Positions 2,132 to 50,086 of a stretch of DNA of 64,000 nucleotides are shown in pieces. Location: assembly GCF_004798665.1 (NCBI RefSeq), contig NZ_CP039292.1:992001-1056000 (forward strand). The letters are read 5' to 3'. The notes under the pieces are model-generated. The model made no database searches. It was not told the DNA's origin and saw only the letters and a program-made list of their open reading frames with translations. The first letter of the stretch is position 1; the number at the start of each line of letters is the position of its first letter. The translations under genes and the position numbers were made by a program. This DNA is from Actinomyces procaprae. Lineage in GTDB: Bacteria; Actinomycetota; Actinomycetes; Actinomycetales; Actinomycetaceae.

Positions 2132-3495
2132 CCGCATCCGCTGAACTGCCCCCCAACCCTGCAGCGGCTTCTGGGGTGGAGCCCTTCGACGCCGTCGACG
2201 TGATCGCCGCCAAGCGGGACGGGAGCCGGCTGACCGACGCCCAGATCGACTGGGTGGTGGACGCCTACACCCGTGGGGCGGTCGCCGACGAGCAGATGAG
2301 CGCACTGGCGATGGCGATCTACCTCAACGGCATGGACCGGGGTGAGATCGCCCGCTGGACCGACGCCATGATCCGCTCCGGGGAGCGCATGGACTTCTCC
2401 TCCCTGGACCGGCCCACCGCGGACAAGCACTCAACCGGCGGGGTGGGTGACAAGATCACCCTGCCCCTGGCACCGCTCGTGGCCGTCTTCGGCGTCAGTG
2501 TCCCGCAACTGTCCGGCCGCGGCCTGGGCCACACCGGCGGCACCCTGGACAAGCTCGAGTCGATTCCCGGCTGGCGGGCCGCGCTGACCAACGCAGAGAT
2601 CCTGGACATGCTGTCCGTCGACGGCCCCGGCGCCGTCATCTGTGCCGCCGGCAGTGGACTGGCCCCGGCCGACAAGAAGCTGTACGCACTGCGCGACACC
2701 ACCGCCACCGTCTCCTGTGTGCCCCTGATCGCCTCCTCCATCATGAGCAAGAAGATCGCCGAGGGCACCGGCGCACTGGTGCTGGACGTCAAGGTCGGCT
2801 CCGGAGCCTTCATGAAGGAGGCGGCTCAGGCGCGCGAGCTCGCCCAGACGATGGTGGCGCTCGGCACCGACGCCGGCGTGACCACTCGCGCCCTGCTCAC
2901 CGACATGTCGACCCCGCTGGGGTGCACTGCGGGCAATGCCCTGGAGGTGCGTGAGGCCGTAGAGGTGCTTGCGGGCGGTGGCCCCGCCGACGTCGTCGAC
3001 CTGACCGTGGCGCTTGCCCGGGAGATGCTCGACGCCGCCGGGCGGCCGGTGGATGAGTCGGAGCTGCGCGCCGCGCTCGGGGACGGGCGCGCCATGGACG
3101 TGTGGCGCGAGATGATTCGCCGCCAGGACGGCGACCCCGATGCGTGCCTGCCGCGGGCGCCGGAGACGGAGGTGGTGACGGCCGGCGAGGACGGCGTCTT
3201 GACCCGCCTGGACGCGCTCGGTGTGGGCGTGGCCGCCTGGCGCCTGGGGGCCGGCCGCGCCCGCAAGGAAGACCCCGTGCAGGCAGTCGCAGGAGTGGAG
3301 ATGCACGCCAAGCCGGGCGACAGCGTGCGCGCCGGGCAGCCGCTGCTCACCCTGCACACCGCCACCCCGGAGCGCTTCGGCCGCGCCCGCGCCGCCCTGG
3401 ACGGCGCGATCACGATCTGCCCCGCCGACGCCCCGGAGTCGCGGGACGCCATCGCACGACGCCGCAGCGGCGTCGTGCTGGACCGGATCGTCTGA
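2128..3495 (+). CDS. deoA: thymidine / pyrimidine-nucleoside phosphorylase
   Basis: 455-residue cytoplasmic phosphorylase that cleaves thymidine or deoxyuridine with phosphate to the free base and 2-deoxyribose-1-phosphate. It starts with the helical glycosyltransferase family 3 N-terminal domain (DVIAAKRDGSRLTDAQID) and carries the phosphate-binding signature KHSTGGVGDKITL, then SGRGLGHTGGTLDKLES and KVGSGAFMK, which are typical of family members. The C-terminal domain (PYNP type) contains KEDPVQAVAGVEMHAKPGD. Its length matches the bacterial enzyme. The GTG start has GAAGGAGG 6 nt upstream and overlaps the cdd stop. It feeds deoC downstream once the sugar phosphate has been isomerised. Confidence 0.95.
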   Translation: MTASAELPPNPAAASGVEPFDAVDVIAAKRDGSRLTDAQIDWVVDAYTRGAVADEQMSALAMAIYLNGMDRGEIARWTDAMIRSGERMDFSSLDRPTADKHSTGGVGDKITLPLAPLVAVFGVSVPQLSGRGLGHTGGTLDKLESIPGWRAALTNAEILDMLSVDGPGAVICAAGSGLAPADKKLYALRDTTATVSCVPLIASSIMSKKIAEGTGALVLDVKVGSGAFMKEAAQARELAQTMVALGTDAGVTTRALLTDMSTPLGCTAGNALEVREAVEVLAGGGPADVVDLTVALAREMLDAAGRPVDESELRAALGDGRAMDVWREMIRRQDGDPDACLPRAPETEVVTAGEDGVLTRLDALGVGVAAWRLGAGRARKEDPVQAVAGVEMHAKPGDSVRAGQPLLTLHTATPERFGRARAALDGAITICPADAPESRDAIARRRSGVVLDRIV

Positions 3496-5042: not shown

Positions 5043-5097
5043 CGTCGAGGTCGGTCGAAGTAACCGATCTCGATGGTTACTTCGACCGACCTCGACG
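5043..5097. repeat. perfect 23-bp inverted repeat (long hairpin)
   Basis: Arms 5043-5065 and 5075-5097 are exact reverse complements, separated by a 9-nt loop. The arm contains the word CGAGGTCGGT, which recurs as ACCGACCTCGG in the tandem repeat at 30418-30476. It sits after deoC and could end that operon's transcript, but there is no U-tract and the stem is unusually long for an intrinsic terminator. A dispersed palindromic repeat is an alternative reading. Confidence 0.9.
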
Positions 5098-31020: not shown

Positions 31021-31146
31021 GGTGTCCACGGGCCGGTCGGGAGCCTGGGCCGGCGAGCGAGTGGACTGGGGGCTCCAATACGCCGGTTGGGCGTTAACAA
31101 CGTCACTTAACGGTTTGCTGTACACCTCGGAGCCTTGCAGCAGACG

Positions 31147-31175
31147 GTTAACCGGCTCTTCGCGTTCGAGGGTGT
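31147..31175 (+). repeat. dispersed TTAAGGGG repeat, degenerate copy D
   Basis: GTTAACCGGCTCTTCGCG and the GAGGGTGTGGG tail align with copy B with several changes. It is the least conserved copy. Confidence 0.4.
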
Positions 31176-31566
31176 GGGTGGAGCCGGGAGCCAGCTCGTC
31201 GGCGTGGTTTGCGCTGGCGTGGTCTGCTGCGCCGGTTCGGGGTTTACTACTCGGGTTTGGTGTCTGCTGGAGGGTTCTGGGCCTTTCAGGGAGGGTCTAA
31301 CTGGCGTAGCAGAGGCCGAAGGGGCGCACCCGGCGGCCGCGCGCTGGTCTTGACCGCACTCGCTCGACGCCCGTGACGCCGCCCCGGGGACACCCCCTCG
31401 CCGGCCACATGTCCTCGTCAGCCCCAGAACGTCGGCGCAGACTCCACGCCGACCTCGCCCGGACGCCCGAGCGCGACCCCGCGCGCCCGAGCGCGACTAC
31501 CCGCGGGCCCGTACCGCCACGCCCGCAAACGCGTAGCGCCGGTGAGCATCCGGTGGTGTTCCCTGC

Positions 31567-31688
31567 TGTCACAGATTGCACCACTTTGCTGGGACGCGCC
31601 GGGAACCCGGTCAACAGAACCGCGTGATTTCAACGATTTGTGTTAGGTGGCTCGTGTCCGGGCGGGTAAAGTGGTGCAATCAGTGACA
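31567..31688 (-). repeat. 122-bp palindromic miniature element, copy 3 (inverted)
   Basis: Terminal arms 31565-31587 and 31668-31690 are inverted repeats with one mismatch in 23. The element runs from TGTCA to TGACA and is 122 bp long, nearly the size of the copies at 45378 and 49639. On the minus strand an internal word ATCGTTGAAATCA (from about 31637) matches ATCGTTGGAATCA of copy 1 at the same distance (47-48 nt) from the element end. No transposase is present. Confidence 0.65.
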
Positions 31689-31934
31689 GCTGGGCGGCGG
31701 TCGCCGTGGTGAACCGGCTGGCCCACCGGTTTCCTCACCCGGCGACGCGTCGGCGGCCACATCCACGAGCACGACGAGCCGGTCCAGATGACCTGGCGGG
31801 GCTGCTAGAGGACACGCCCCGGCCCTCAAGGACGCCTCCCGGGAGAGCGTCTTCGGCGGTCCGACGATGTCCCACCGACCCGAGCACGCCCGCATCACCC
31901 CAACCACCCCCGCACCACAGCCCCGGCCAGACCT

Positions 31935-45377: not shown

Positions 45378-45497
45378 TGTCCGAATCCGGCACAAACGCG
45401 CTCGAAGCAGCCAACTGACCTTTGCTAATCGTTGGAATCAAGCCGTTTTACGGGCGACCCACGGGTACGGGTGCGGCGTTTGTGCCGAATCTGGACA
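45378..45497 (+). repeat. 120-bp palindromic miniature element, copy 1
   Basis: Arms 45378-45399 and 45476-45497 (22 bp, 3 mismatches) begin TGTCC and end GGACA. The arm's inner end ACAAACGC is identical to that of copy 2 at 49639, and the two elements have exactly the same length. The internal word ATCGTTGGAATCA begins at 45428. It fills most of the gap between the Tad operon and prfB. Confidence 0.8.
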
Positions 45498-45549
45498 CTT
45501 TTCCGGCGGACACCGGTGGCCGCCGTCGGCTCGGTCCACGGGTCTGTTC

Positions 45550-45555
45550 TAGACT
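45550..45555 (+). promoter_or_regulatory. -10 box, leaderless start of prfB
   Basis: TAGACT ends 7 nt before the GTG start at 45563; no Shine-Dalgarno is present. Confidence 0.6.
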
Positions 45556-45562
45556 CGGGCCC

Positions 45563-46684
45563 GTGGCCACAGACTTCCCCGCCGAGATCGAGCAGCTCCG
45601 ACACACCTACGCCTCCGTCGTCGCCGTGACGGACCCCGAGGCGCTGCGCGGGCGCATCGCCGAGTTGTCCGAGCAGGCCGCCGCCCCCAACCTGTGGGAC
45701 GACCCCGACGCCGCCCAGGCCGTCACCTCCGCCCTCTCGCACGCACAGGCGGACCTCAAGCGCGTTCAGGCGCTGGGCGGGCGCATCGACGACCTGGAAA
45801 CCATGGTGGAGATGGCGGGGGAGGAGTCCGGCGCGGATGCCGAAGAACTGCTCGCCGAGGCCGAGCGCGATCTCGCCGCCGTGCGCAAGGATCTGTCCGA
45901 CCTGGAGATCCGCACCCTGCTGTCAGGCGAGTACGACCAGCGCGACGCCGTGGTCACCATCCGCTCCGGTGCGGGTGGCGTGGACGCCGCCGACTTCGCC
46001 GAGATGCTGCTGCGCATGTACACCCGCTGGGCCGAGCGGCACGACTACCCGGTCAAGATCCTCAACACCTCTTACGCCGAGGAGGCCGGGCTGAAGTCCG
46101 TCACCTTCGAGGTGCACGCACCGTACGCCTACGGCACGCTCAGCGTGGAGGGTGGCACCCACCGCCTGGTGCGCATCAGCCCCTTCGACAACCAGGGCCG
46201 CCGCCAGACCTCCTTCGCGGCCGTCGAGGTCATCCCGCTGATCGAGTCCACCGACCACATCGACATTCCCGAGACGGACATCCGAGTCGACGTCTTCCGC
46301 TCCTCCGGCCCCGGCGGCCAGAGCGTCAACACCACCGACTCGGCCGTGCGCATCACCCACCTGCCCACCGGGTTGGTGGTGTCCATGCAGGATGAGAAGT
46401 CCCAGATCCAGAACCGCGCCGCCGCCATGCGCGTGCTCCAGTCCCGCCTGCTGCTGCTCAAGCAGCAGGAGGAGGACGCCAAGAAGAAGGAGCTCGCCGG
46501 CGACGTCAAGGCCTCCTGGGGTGACCAGATGCGCTCCTACGTGCTCAACCCCTACCAGATGGTCAAGGACCTGCGCACCAATTACGAGGTCGGCAACCCC
46601 GACTCCGTGTTCGACGGCGACATCGACGCCTTCATCGACGCCGGCATCCGCTGGCGCAAGCAGCAGGAGCAGGCGGCCGACTGA
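45563..46684 (+). CDS. prfB: peptide chain release factor 2
   Basis: 373-residue class I release factor that reads UGA and UAA and triggers peptide release. The stop-codon-reading tripeptide is SPF ([14 protein letters not shown]), which is diagnostic for RF2, and the catalytic GGQ lies in [18 protein letters not shown]. The N-terminal helical domain and the C-terminal basic region are complete and the length is normal. There is no in-frame UGA or frameshift site near codon 25, so the autoregulatory frameshift of E. coli prfB is absent, as usual in actinobacteria. The GTG start is set by the -10 box 7 nt before it. Confidence 0.96.
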
Positions 46685-46731
46685 GCCTGCGAGAGTGTCC
46701 TTCCGGCTGGCGTCGGTCCGGGCGGCCCCGG

Positions 46732-46986
46732 TCAGCGGTACACGTCGCGGCGGTGTTCGGGCGTGACCACAACGACGACGAGTCGGCCGTCGTCGATCGT
46801 GTAGATGATGCGGTAGTCGCCCACGCGTGCCCGCCAGGCGGGGCGGCCTTTGAGGGGGCGGCATCCGGGAGGATACGGGTCGGTGGCGAGCAAAGCTATC
46901 GCCCCCTGGATCCGGCGCTGGTCCCGCTTGTCGATGCGCCGCAGAGCTTTGAGCGCCGCGGGGCGCACCTCAATCTCGTATCGCAC
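46732..46986 (-). CDS. RelE/ParE family toxin
   Basis: 84-residue toxin of the RelE superfamily, probably an mRNA interferase acting at the ribosome. The start KALRRIDKRDQRRIQGAI, the Pro-rich loop DPYPPGCRPLKGRPAWRARVGDYRIIYTI and the C-terminal HRRDVYR match the family, with basic and Tyr residues placed as in active RelE toxins. The GTG start is 14 nt after the stop of the antitoxin frame on the same strand. The toxin reading frame is intact although the antitoxin is frameshifted. Confidence 0.85.
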   Translation of the reverse strand: MRYEIEVRPAALKALRRIDKRDQRRIQGAIALLATDPYPPGCRPLKGRPAWRARVGDYRIIYTIDDGRLVVVVVTPEHRRDVYR

Positions 46987-47000
46987 GGGTGGCCGCTTGC

Positions 47001-47250
47001 TCAGTCGAGCCCGAGGTCGGCCTTGACCTCATCCCAGGGGATGTTGGGTCCCTCCTCGTTCATTGCCGCGTCGTATGCGGCGATGTCCTCCCGGTCCTCC
47101 AGTGCCTCGAGCATGTGCTCATAGGCCGCCGGACTTATGAGTACGGCTGCGGTCCGGCCCCGGTTGGTTAAGGAAGACGGCGTCCTCGTGCGCCTTGTCC
47201 ACCAGAGCGGGGAGCTCGGCGCGGGCACGGGACATGGTTACGGTGGTCAT
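47001..47250 (-). pseudogene. Phd/YefM-type antitoxin, frameshifted
   Basis: The N-terminal part reads MTTVTMSRARAELPALVDKA and HEDAVFL from ATG 47250, and the C-terminal part reads TNRGRTAAVLISPAAYEHML through to the stop at 47001, but in the next frame. One extra base near 47168-47171 (TTAA on the plus strand) breaks the gene; without it the product would be an 82-residue Phd/YefM antitoxin. Codon 1 follows a TACATT -10 box by 6 nt. The downstream frame has a start of its own (47228), but that product would lack the DNA-binding N-terminus. Sequencing error or a real mutation are both possible. Confidence 0.8.
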
Positions 47251-47256
47251 GACTGA

Positions 47257-47269
47257 AATGTACGTTTCG
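47257..47269 (-). promoter_or_regulatory. -10 box and imperfect palindrome before the antitoxin gene
   Basis: TACATT (47257-47262, minus strand) ends 6 nt before the antitoxin ATG at 47250. It lies in the near-palindrome GAAATGTACGTTTC (47255-47268, plus strand), a plausible autoregulatory operator for the toxin-antitoxin pair. Confidence 0.45.
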
Positions 47270-47337
47270 GTAAGCGAGTTGTACAGAATTCGGCTCGGGT
47301 GCCCGCGCCTGCCGACTCTGCCCGGTGAGACAGGACT

Positions 47338-48384
47338 TCAGACGTATGAGGCGGTAATCCGCCGGGAGGCGGCATCGACGGTGAGCGTGCCTCCGTGGGG
47401 GAGGATCCACTGGGGGCGAGTATGACCGAAGGGGACTCCTGCGCATACCGGTGCCGCCGTGTTGTAGTGCCGGATGACCTCAAGCGCACTCTGGGCCTGC
47501 TCCTGCCGGTATTGCGCACGCGCCTGGGCGTCACGCGAGACCTGGAAACTGGTTGCGGGCGCCCGGGCCAGCAGTACTGCGGCCGCGGCCGTGAGTACCC
47601 CGCGTTCTCCCAGAGAGCGCAGCATGCCCGCCACCAGTTCCCGGCCGGGAAGCAACTCGGAGGTTTCCAGTATCAGAACGCAGCCATCGAGGTCTCTGGC
47701 GTCGGCATGGATGCGCCCTGCGGCGAGGCCGAGTACCAGCACCTCCAAGCATCCGCCCCAGCCGGGCCCGCTGGCTGCGGTGGAAGGCCCGTCCCACAGC
47801 CAAGGTTCCGTCTGCTCGCGGGTCCCGTATTCGCTCAGCGCTTGCGGATCGGCCCAGTCCTTGCCGAAGTCCTCCGAGTATCCCGGCTCGGTGACTTCCA
47901 GAGTCTCACCCGTCAGCAGTGCCGCACGCAGCGAGGCCCGATGAACGGCGTCGACCTCGGGCCCGGGTCCTAGGTGAACCTGGGTGGCGCCGCCGTGGAA
48001 GCTGCACACGCCGTGCTCCCACAGCCATTGGTGCAGGTTGGTGTTGTCCGAGTAGCCGAGCACCGGCTTGGGGTCTGTCAGGACGGGCTCGACATCAAGG
48101 AGTGGCAGGACCGTCATCTCATCGTCACCGCCCGCGGTGGCGATGATCGCGCGAATGCTCGGATCGGCGAAGGCGGCGTTCAGGTCGTCGGCGCGCTCGC
48201 GCGCGCCGGCTCCGAGACGGCGGGTCGTGGGGAACTCCACCGGCACCAGACCGGTTATGGCGTGGAGTCGCTCCAGCGCCTGTTGGTGAACAGCGGGACC
48301 GATGGCGGGCACTGCCAACGACGGCGACAGCACCGCAATCTTGTCGCCCTCCTTGGCCTTACCAGGGCTGACCAATTGGCTCAT
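47338..48384 (-). CDS. S66 family LD-carboxypeptidase / MccF-like serine peptidase
   Basis: 348-residue peptidase of family S66. The N-terminal Ser-containing elbow GYSDNTNLHQWLW (nucleophile Ser) and the preceding AIIATAGGDDEMTVLPLL match the family, as do the later WGGCLEVL and LILETSE (catalytic Glu region) and FGHTRPQWILPHG (catalytic His region). Relatives either trim peptidoglycan tetrapeptides (LdcA) or cleave microcin C-type toxins (MccF); the closer match in pattern is MccF, and no signal peptide is seen, which fits a cytoplasmic enzyme. ATG 48384 has AAGGGC just upstream. It is divergent from the CPBP protease gene. Confidence 0.87.
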   Translation of the reverse strand: MSQLVSPGKAKEGDKIAVLSPSLAVPAIGPAVHQQALERLHAITGLVPVEFPTTRRLGAGARERADDLNAAFADPSIRAIIATAGGDDEMTVLPLLDVEPVLTDPKPVLGYSDNTNLHQWLWEHGVCSFHGGATQVHLGPGPEVDAVHRASLRAALLTGETLEVTEPGYSEDFGKDWADPQALSEYGTREQTEPWLWDGPSTAASGPGWGGCLEVLVLGLAAGRIHADARDLDGCVLILETSELLPGRELVAGMLRSLGERGVLTAAAAVLLARAPATSFQVSRDAQARAQYRQEQAQSALEVIRHYNTAAPVCAGVPFGHTRPQWILPHGGTLTVDAASRRITASYV

Positions 48385-48633
48385 GCCCTTGAAGTGTAGC
48401 CGGGGCTCCGCGCGGGCGCAGGATGAGCGACGACGCGGGCTCGTCGTCGAGCATGCGCCGTGGCCGTCGAGCATGCTGTCCAGAGTGCCGTTCTCGTGGG
48501 CCGTTCCACGTCCGCGAGAGTTGACCCGCGTGCTCCGGGGCAGGCTCGGGGAGCACCCGGGCACGCCCCTGATTCTTCGGCGTGTCTTCCCTGGTTTTGA
48601 CTGTGATTCCTGGAGTGGGCGCATGGGCCCGCT

Positions 48634-48639
48634 TAGCGT
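48634..48639 (+). promoter_or_regulatory. -10 box, leaderless start of the CPBP gene
   Basis: TAGCGT ends 7 nt before the ATG at 48647. Confidence 0.55.
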
Positions 48640-48646
48640 GGTGGGC

Positions 48647-49594
48647 ATGAGCGCTCACGAGATCACCGGGGCAGGGGTCAAAACCGAGGCGGGGCCGGAG
48701 GCGCGAGCGAGTCGGCCGGGCCCGGGCGGCGCCACGGCGCGGGTGGCGATCGCCATCGCGGTCATGCTGCTGAGTGCCACGGTGCCGACGCTCGTCATGG
48801 CCATACCGGGAGTGCAGGCACTGCTTGACGGAAAGGTCTTCGGCCGGAGCAGCGCAGGGTTGCTGGTGGTTTGTCTGGCGGTGCTCGTGATCATGTCCTT
48901 GGCGACGGCGTGCGCCTACCAGTGCACCCGGCTGCTGATCACTCGCCTGGACCACGCGCGTCTCTCCGATCTGGCAGTGCGCCCGAGTCCGCGCGCACTG
49001 GCCTGGTGCCTGGGCATGATCGCCGTCGCCTTCGCGGTCATGCCGATGGCCGGAGCCGTGAGTGAAGCGCTCGGCATCCCCCGAGCGGAGCCCGCCATGC
49101 CGGGTGACACGTGGTGGTCCGCGATCCTGTTTCAGGTCGCCCTGGGGTTCTTCCTGCAGGGGATCCCCGAAGAATTGGTGTGGCGTGGTTGGTTGTTCCG
49201 CTCACTCGGCTCCACCCGGACGGCGGCGGCTGTATCGGTCCTCGCCTTCACCGCCGTGCACTTGATCTCCCAGGGCGGTCAGGAGGGCTGGGGCGAGCGC
49301 TTCATCTACCTGGCCATGCCCTTCGGCTTTGGTGCGGCGGCGATGGCGGCCCGCTGGGTGTCGGGCTCAACCTGGGCGGCCGTAGGCGCGCACGGCGGAT
49401 TTCACCTGTCTGGTCTTTTGGCGGTGAGCACCGGCGTCCCCGTTGACGAGCCAACCACGTGGGTGGTGGTCGGCAGCATGTGGCTGGTGGCAGGGGCGAT
49501 CGTGCTGCTACTTCACAAGGCTCGCGCCGGTCGCATGTACGGTGCGGTTGAGGCCCGAGGGGCGCAGGCGAGCAGCGGGCCGGACGATCTGTGA
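48647..49594 (+). CDS. CPBP family intramembrane metalloprotease
   Basis: 315-residue membrane protein of the CAAX protease / bacteriocin-processing (CPBP, ABI) family, with about eight helices. The family motifs are intact: PEELVWRGWLF (Glu-Glu-x3-Arg), FTAVHLIS (His) and HGGFHLSG near the C-terminus, so it is likely an active intramembrane protease. Substrates are unknown; relatives give bacteriocin self-immunity. The 30-residue N-terminus before the first helix is polar. The start is supported by a -10 box 7 nt upstream. A palindromic miniature element begins 44 bp after its stop. Confidence 0.88.
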   Translation: MSAHEITGAGVKTEAGPEARASRPGPGGATARVAIAIAVMLLSATVPTLVMAIPGVQALLDGKVFGRSSAGLLVVCLAVLVIMSLATACAYQCTRLLITRLDHARLSDLAVRPSPRALAWCLGMIAVAFAVMPMAGAVSEALGIPRAEPAMPGDTWWSAILFQVALGFFLQGIPEELVWRGWLFRSLGSTRTAAAVSVLAFTAVHLISQGGQEGWGERFIYLAMPFGFGAAAMAARWVSGSTWAAVGAHGGFHLSGLLAVSTGVPVDEPTTWVVVGSMWLVAGAIVLLLHKARAGRMYGAVEARGAQASSGPDDL

Positions 49595-50086
49595 ACGGTA
49601 GTCACTCGCCTGGTCCCTGGTCGCGGGTGTACGGGAAGTGTCCAAATCGATGACAAACGCCGCTCACTCGCTGCCCGTGCGGCGCAAAACGTTGATTTTC
49701 CAACGGTCTGCGAACCGGTTCCGGGAGGCCGCCGGGGCGTTTGTCATCGATTTGGACACCCTGTGCCGATGTGAGCGGCCAGAACCCCGGGATGCGCTCC
49801 AGCGGGATGTCCAGGTACTTCCGGAATGTGCTTAGGGCAGGGCTCCAGGAGGCGACAGTGATGTCGAATTACGACCCCGGGGTCGTGACCCTTCAACCGA
49901 CACGCGGCGGCGGCCGCGCACGTGCACGGCGTCACTGGCCCGCGCCGTCGCCCCGGGTCCGCGGCTCCCGTAGGCTGGGCGGCAGTGCGTGCCGACGACG
50001 AGGGCCGCACTCCGGCGCAGTCGGGGAGCATCGTCGTCGGGGCGCGAGTGAATCCGAGCAACCCCTTTGAAAGGCGTATCAGACCT
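49595..50086. other. intergenic region upstream of ettA
   Basis: 492 bp without a convincing gene. It contains the 120-bp palindromic element (49639-49758) and a perfect 16-bp palindrome ACGACCCCGGGGTCGT (49871-49886) that could be an operator or short hairpin. The rest is G/C-rich and unremarkable. Confidence 0.55.
49639..49758 (+). repeat. 120-bp palindromic miniature element, copy 2
   Basis: Arms 49638-49661 and 49736-49759 are perfect 24-bp inverted repeats. From TGTCC to GGACA the element is exactly 120 bp, as is copy 1 at 45378. An internal CGTTG lies at offset 51 (52 in copy 1). It has no open frame and no obvious target-site duplication. The arms would fold into a 24-bp stem in RNA or single-stranded DNA. 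Confidence 0.85.

Follow-up and report, generated by a model that had tools for sequence, protein, structure and literature searches.

Intergenic ~120-bp palindromes in Actinomyces bracket DUF559-type nuclease genes and may be spread by them

ERIC sequences and similar miniature inverted-repeat transposable elements (MITEs) are imperfect palindromes of ~120-130 bp, located between genes in many copies, and we know of no link between ERIC and a nuclease gene. In the REP/REPIN-RAYT systems, as described in PMC2817692 and PMC3116915, intergenic palindromes coevolve with a gene that is bracketed by its own palindrome type, with several classes per genome; REPs themselves are given as 20-40 bp (PMC3733652). 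A different kind of enzyme is represented by I-Bth0305I, described as an EDxHD homing endonuclease (PMC3943268). Here, we describe a family of ~120-bp palindromic elements in Actinomyces, three copies of which lie in a 64,000-nucleotide stretch of Actinomyces procaprae (NZ_CP039292.1, positions 992,001 to 1,056,000; hereafter the window, numbered from its first letter). These three sequences are, we think with a little more than even confidence, solo copies of a palindromic element within a nuclease-based repeat system that spreads it.

The three copies had been noticed in a reading of the window's sequence alone. Their positions and lengths (120, 120 and 122 bp) were confirmed, together with the TGTCC...GGACA ends and inner ACAAACGC of copies 1 and 2, the perfect 24-bp arms of copy 2 (49638-49661 / 49736-49759) and the occurrence of ATCGTTGAAATCA on the minus strand of copy 3. 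Copy 3 was rightly placed in the family, but its arm class is TGCACCACTTT and not ACAAACG. The features are as follows.

45378..45497, + (centre on + strand): copy 1, solo palindromic element of 120 bp, arm class GGCACAAACG
45378..45398, +: left arm of copy 1, 21 bp
45428..45445, +: conserved centre of copy 1, ATCGTTGGAATCAAGCCG (genome 1037428-1037445)
45477..45497, +: right arm of copy 1, 21 bp, 18/21 complementary to the left arm
49639..49758, - (strand uncertain, degenerate centre): copy 2, solo palindromic element of 120 bp, arm class CGATGACAAACG, 21/21 arm pairs
31567..31688, -: copy 3, palindromic element of 122 bp, arm class TGCACCACTTT, 20/21 arm pairs
31620..31637, -: conserved centre of copy 3, ATCGTTGAAATCACGCGG (genome 1023620-1023637)

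A covariance model trained on 25 copies, with copy 1 included and copies 2 and 3 left out, recovered the latter two in a window search (E = 3.9e-16 and 4.5e-12, respectively) and matched no place beyond the three copies up to E = 1. The orientation of copy 2 is uncertain because its centre is degenerate (10/18 matching positions; 67.5 vs 64.7 bits for the two strands). A generic palindrome scan of the window returned the same three copies plus one unrelated 82-bp hairpin. Since 20 Markov-resampled windows yielded 0 to 4 scan matches each, the excess lies in shared sequence and length, not in the hairpin alone.

The REP-like family of intergenic palindromes that the sequence-only reading had proposed was borne out, and further copies clearly exist. 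Scanning the 3.60-Mb A. procaprae genome gave 59 candidates, 11 of which were discarded by eye as unrelated hairpins, leaving 48 curated copies, a number that excludes weaker copies under the scan threshold. The centre motif ATCGTTGRAATCANRCGG had 53 matches at ≤3 mismatches, compared to 3 for the reversed control, and the end patterns occurred mostly in pairs ~100 bp apart. Across the genus, model matches were found in 40/49 genomes (E ≤ 0.01), with at least 74 in each of four genomes, counts that include both strands of one place; named host species were Actinomyces succiniciruminis, A. glycerinitolerans, A. ruminis and A. ruminicola. At the family level, matches occurred in 38/200 genomes from 3/36 genera (E ≤ 1e-4). 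Forty-seven of the 48 A. procaprae copies did not overlap called genes, which make up ~79% of the window. The neighbours of the 36 copies with a called gene on both sides were tandem (18), convergent (11) or divergent (7), approximating the corresponding share of intergenic bases in the window and thus indicating no promoter preference; these calls came from a simple codon-usage finder, and 11/48 copies had no called neighbour on one side.

The elements share a common layout. TGTC is followed by a stretch that varies and then by ACAAACG or a different end specific to the lineage; ~29 unconserved bases separate this from the 18-bp conserved centre (beginning at position 51), and another ~31 separate the centre from the complementary right arm, which has the GACA end. 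Most distinct copies (139/195) were exactly 120 bp, in a scan restricted to 119-123 bp, which bounds the length spread. The 21-bp arms varied among copies while left and right remained complementary. In 70 non-redundant copies, 1296/1470 arm cells were Watson-Crick pairs, compared to 1034 ± 11 in column shuffles. Arm positions 11-14 were variable in sequence and paired in 60-68/70 copies and positions 12-15 were mispaired in 0-6/70, whereas position 10 was paired in only 45/70 (mispaired in 25/70). A pair count on 25 A. procaprae copies gave 68 cells changed on both sides versus 33 in shuffles, and in consensus folding of the 70 copies the arms were the sole pairs.

These palindromes are associated with genes encoding a DUF559-type protein (Pfam DUF559 / MTES_1575), a link beyond the view of the sequence-only reading because the main evidence sits outside the window. 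The reference unit consists of two palindromes bracketing one gene and spans ~1.2 kb in A. procaprae. The protein combines an N-terminal AbiEi-like region, including a winged helix, with an EDxHD nuclease domain (matches to I-Bth0305I and Vsr); the acidic and His residues expected of the EDxHD fold are conserved, E191, D218 and E228 are predicted to be catalytic, and the protein is under purifying selection. It had no match in NCBIfam and weak matches only in PADLOC and PHROGs. Between the two palindromes of the A. procaprae cassettes L100 and L101 (L and G numbers are our handles for loci and genomes) no transposase was found, and searches of these cassettes gave no second gene with a known toxin domain and, in the frames scanned, no AbiEii nucleotidyltransferase domain. 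Within the part of the open-licence PMC literature that was covered, we found neither a described role for DUF559-type proteins with an AbiEi-like front part nor a palindrome-nuclease system of this kind.

A protein search of 49 genomes returned a match in 43 (E ≤ 1e-5). Among the best 30 loci, a palindrome lay beside the gene in 29 and on both sides in 20. Twenty further paralogs, 35-48% identical, were picked by hand, not at random, before their flanks were inspected; in 16/20, a 119-154 bp palindrome lay no more than 250 bp from the gene. Most of these palindromes had arms that were new relative to the best 30 loci, while the TGCACCACTTT lineage was already known from A. procaprae. Two of four other A. 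procaprae paralogs also had a palindrome. In total, this equated to 47/54 loci with a palindrome beside the gene and 31/54 with one on both sides (L399 being two-sided only under a looser filter), and the background of the flank scan was 0.02 palindromes per 250-bp flank (738 kb scanned). Where present, the upstream palindrome ended 70-216 bp before the gene match, and in most cassettes another lay directly downstream. The bracketing pair had the same orientation in 14/19 and opposite orientations in 5/19 of those two-sided loci among the best 30 in which the centre allowed orientation to be assigned. Phylum-wide, a homolog (E ≤ 1e-10) was found in 2/197 genomes besides A. procaprae, at three loci. 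A hairpin of 90-92 bp, lacking TGTC ends, lay at most 250 bp from the gene in two of these; the third had none. Just outside the outer palindrome of the nuclease cassette in L100 (about 2950-3205), a WXG100 (ESX-type) domain is encoded.

The arms coevolve with the nuclease lineage. The two palindromes of one locus shared a mean of 19.9/21 arm bases (31 loci; one outlier, 6), compared to a mean of 12.0 between loci of different genomes, and protein identity was correlated with arm identity (Mantel r = 0.84, p = 0.0005, 2000 permutations, n = 47). In several cassettes (e.g. L335, L336, L340) the flanking copies shared even an identical arm mismatch. Of the 48 A. procaprae copies, 41 were closest in arm class to one of three resident nuclease genes; the remaining seven were of classes GGG and GGTG, and a GGG-type cassette is present in G024. 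The three window copies have the arm classes of three different resident nuclease genes: copy 1 that of gene 3307986 (cassette at genome 3307855-3309052), copy 2 that of gene 3228646 (cassette at genome 3228572-3229819) and copy 3 that of gene 117593 (genome 117593-118369), as carried by its upstream palindrome. Across genomes, at least 10 element matches occurred in 25/27 with a close gene, compared to 3/22 without. G007 had no covariance-model match; there, a divergent nuclease has a variant palindrome on both sides, and palindromes of its own arm type occur at three further places.

L347 1200-1328 and 2349-2476: G007 variant palindromes, 128-129 bp, with ACGACGTCGT in the middle and the usual centre replaced

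Cassettes also differed between genomes at one fixed locus. Beside the PEPCK gene, a cassette was present in 11/22 tested loci, in the A. procaprae orientation in five and inverted in six. In the sister species G010 and G041 the outer flanks of this locus are 95.6% and 93.4% identical, while the nucleases differ (77% DNA identity) and so do the arm classes. On one side, homology between the two genomes ends inside a palindrome arm; on the other, it resumes ~12 bp past the palindrome in G010 and 69 bp past the nearest one in G041. Next to its own nuclease gene, G010 retains a damaged palindrome with the arm class of G041. We infer that one cassette replaced another here, with the palindromes as borders, and this difference would lend indirect support to site-specific cleavage driving the spread of the nuclease's own gene.

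The system is best read as apparently analogous to REP/REPIN-RAYT, with an unrelated nuclease of homing type as its enzyme. Both have intergenic palindromes that number in the tens or higher (here 47/48 A. procaprae copies; 40/49 genomes), a gene bracketed by cognate, coevolving palindromes (here 31/54 loci on both sides, 47/54 on at least one; r 0.84) and several palindrome classes in one genome, each linked to a gene of its own. However, where RAYTs are IS200/IS605-type Y1 tyrosine transposases, the enzyme here is an AbiEi-like region joined to an EDxHD/Vsr-like nuclease, and unlike REPs the element measures ~120 bp, ends in TGTC/GACA and has an asymmetric, conserved centre. The flanking palindromes of REP/RAYT are inverted, whereas 14/19 loci here have them in the same orientation. 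The nuclease fold and conserved acidic/His residues are shared with EDxHD homing endonucleases, but unlike that of I-Bth0305I the gene lies between two palindromes of which there are also tens of solo copies. In contrast to AbiEi antitoxins (type IV toxin-antitoxin systems), the AbiEi-like region is fused to a nuclease domain, and no toxin partner was recognised between the palindromes of L100 and L101. Length, imperfect palindromy, intergenic position and high copy number recall ERIC and other MITEs; here, though, the arms diverge yet remain complementary and are tied to a gene lineage.

As a mechanism, we infer that the protein binds the arms and cuts, and that this cutting spreads copies. 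A protein dimer would recognise inverted 21-bp arms belonging to its own lineage, whether as duplex, cruciform or single-stranded hairpin, and would cut at or near the TGTC/GACA ends. Copies would then reach other intergenic sites through cutting and repair, in a homing- or REPIN-like manner and without target-site duplication, and separate nuclease lineages would maintain separate arm classes in one genome. A broader proposal, to which we give an even chance, is that the elements form a class of selfish DNA where nucleases of homing type (an AbiEi-like region with an EDxHD domain) stand in for a transposase and keep populations of ~120-bp palindromes under one arm code per lineage, an independent and convergent invention of the REPIN-RAYT arrangement whose palindrome-bordered cassettes replace one another at fixed loci. 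The bracketing of nuclease genes by palindromes with matching ends suggests a previously unrecognised type of self-spreading DNA without an ordinary transposase.

Other explanations account for parts of these data. The palindromes could be MITEs moved by an ordinary transposase, with the nuclease gene as cargo caught between two copies, and their terminal inverted repeats (the 21-bp arms), intergenic dispersal (47/48) and near-fixed length agree with this, as does the presence of some copies inside a larger, transposon-like repeat that has an 8-9 bp duplication. We nevertheless consider it unlikely, given that the arms coevolve with the nuclease across lineages, that no transposase was found between the palindromes of L100 and L101 and that 91 flank-distinct copies gave no convincing duplication. 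Searches with the end patterns and some arm classes in A. procaprae, G032 and G005 yielded no candidate autonomous transposon with the same ends. The end-pattern matches of A. procaprae were mostly in paired elements (~12/67 lay outside, one of these inspected), and among eight selected ends from G032 and G005 six were paired, one belonged to a truncated copy and one was partnerless in the DNA examined. The MITE alternative of the sequence-only reading is therefore weak, in that neither a convincing target-site duplication nor, within these limited searches, an insertion sequence with the same ends was found. We give no better odds to the palindromes being operators and the AbiEi-like protein their regulator, with the solo copies forming a regulon or the cassette an autoregulated toxin-antitoxin-like unit. 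AbiEi antitoxin binds inverted repeats in its own promoter, the N-terminal part of the protein has the AbiEi antitoxin fold, and the upstream copy, where present, ends at the distance from the gene match given above (70-216 bp). Against this, most cassettes have a copy directly downstream of the gene as well; promoters were not preferred (18 tandem, 11 convergent, 7 divergent), the nuclease residues are conserved, and in neither L100 nor L101 was a second gene with a known toxin domain found.

Two further explanations concern the pairing itself, and both seem to us very improbable. A structured RNA, with the conserved centre as a loop, would agree with the strong arm covariation (68 vs 33 in shuffles) and with the constant position of that centre. 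However, arm mismatches in the 70 copies comprised 52 G-T and 46 A-C, with no G-U bias, and this near-equality points to pairing at the DNA rather than the RNA level. Copies occur in all gene contexts and matched no Rfam family: the whole window had no match at gathering scores, and positions 44-51 kb searched at E ≤ 1 gave a single weak match, unrelated and to none of the copies. The RNA signal entertained in the sequence-only reading thus found no support. Complementarity could instead be maintained by template-switch correction during replication, an established mutational process for palindromes, with no recognition involved and the gene association reflecting recombination hot spots. The same mismatch in the flanking copies of several cassettes (L335, L336, L340) is in line with this, but it leaves unexplained why arms track the nuclease lineage, why the arms of most copies match resident nucleases, and why mispairing falls to 0-6/70 at positions 12-15 from 25/70 at position 10.

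Several observations weigh against dispersal by the nuclease. Seven of the 54 loci had no nearby palindrome (L331, L355, L356, L393-L395 and L405), although L331 (G005) is cut by the contig end, where no element was found. The two-sided outlier L406 has unlike arms, and coevolution at a vertically inherited locus would yield the same Mantel result. The correlation of gene and element across genomes is confounded by distance from A. procaprae, because both queries come from it; moreover, a close gene is lacking in G009, G047 and G023 despite 18-23 element matches, and G048 and G015 have one yet only 3 and 7 matches, respectively. In ~160 kb of aligned DNA, 6/7 G041 elements were shared in place with G010 and the seventh lies in DNA that G010 lacks, which indicates low current activity; for three G010 elements, the G041 stretches compared contained no orthologous DNA. 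No clean empty site was found for any solo copy, and no exact 3-11 bp target-site duplication in the 91 flank-distinct copies, though old copies could have lost theirs. In the same set, 2-bp flank matches were in excess (16 vs 4.6 expected, 9 of them AT/AT), which we read as an extended palindrome, and one shifted 4-bp flank test with ≤1 mismatch gave 13 vs 5.5 expected, an excess that is unexplained. At the window sites themselves, prfB in G024 and G034 has the same upstream gene as in A. procaprae, with no copy 1 in between, but the intergenic DNA has diverged too far for the event to be placed; in G010 and G041, the intergenic region of copy 2 has a larger repeat with another copy. Of the seven loci without a palindrome, L355 and L393-L395 represent the A. 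procaprae gene 3069655-3070455 and three relatives by similar score, paralogs without flanking palindromes that are perhaps domesticated.

The palindrome bracketing each gene is a candidate substrate that can be read from the genome, providing dozens of natural enzyme-site pairs whose sequence specificity is testable at once. If dispersal by the nuclease is true, the REPIN-RAYT arrangement, whose persistence is called an "intriguing question" by its authors (PMC3116915), would have arisen a second time with an unrelated enzyme.

Some copies are embedded in larger repeats. Copy 3 and up to ten similar A. procaprae copies have parts of a larger repeat in common (206 to ~740 bp matched), whose extent in the window was as follows.

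31151..31780, no strand assigned: larger dispersed repeat around copy 3, shared with locus L011 (extent = limit of the BLAST match to L011)

The L011 unit (930-1661, up to ~730 bp) has GGCGCTTC/GAAGAGCC ends of GGCKCTTC type, which we take to be ISL3-like. In G041, another species, the corresponding site is cleanly empty, and the comparison shows an 8-9 bp duplication at the unit; another transposon therefore probably multiplied these repeats. Copy 3 probably reached its window site as a passenger of the larger repeat.

In G032, an amplified ~540-bp composite (L272-L279, L281, L285 and L286; 96-99.6% identical to the copy in L273) contains a TGTCC-type element, adjoined in several copies by a TGGCGCC-type element. 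A further ~115-bp palindromic repeat with the motif GTCTGCTACGCCGG occurs among mosaic repeats in L029 (about 1922), L022 (about 1823) and L014 (about 1108), and a similar motif lies at 31120-31247 of the window. Short head-to-tail repeats (CCGACCTCGGTACGTAAGATCTA) adjoin a mosaic repeat in L008 (about 2250-2420). Elsewhere in the window, positions 5043-5097 form a perfect 23-bp inverted repeat with a 9-base gap that is unrelated to the palindrome family.

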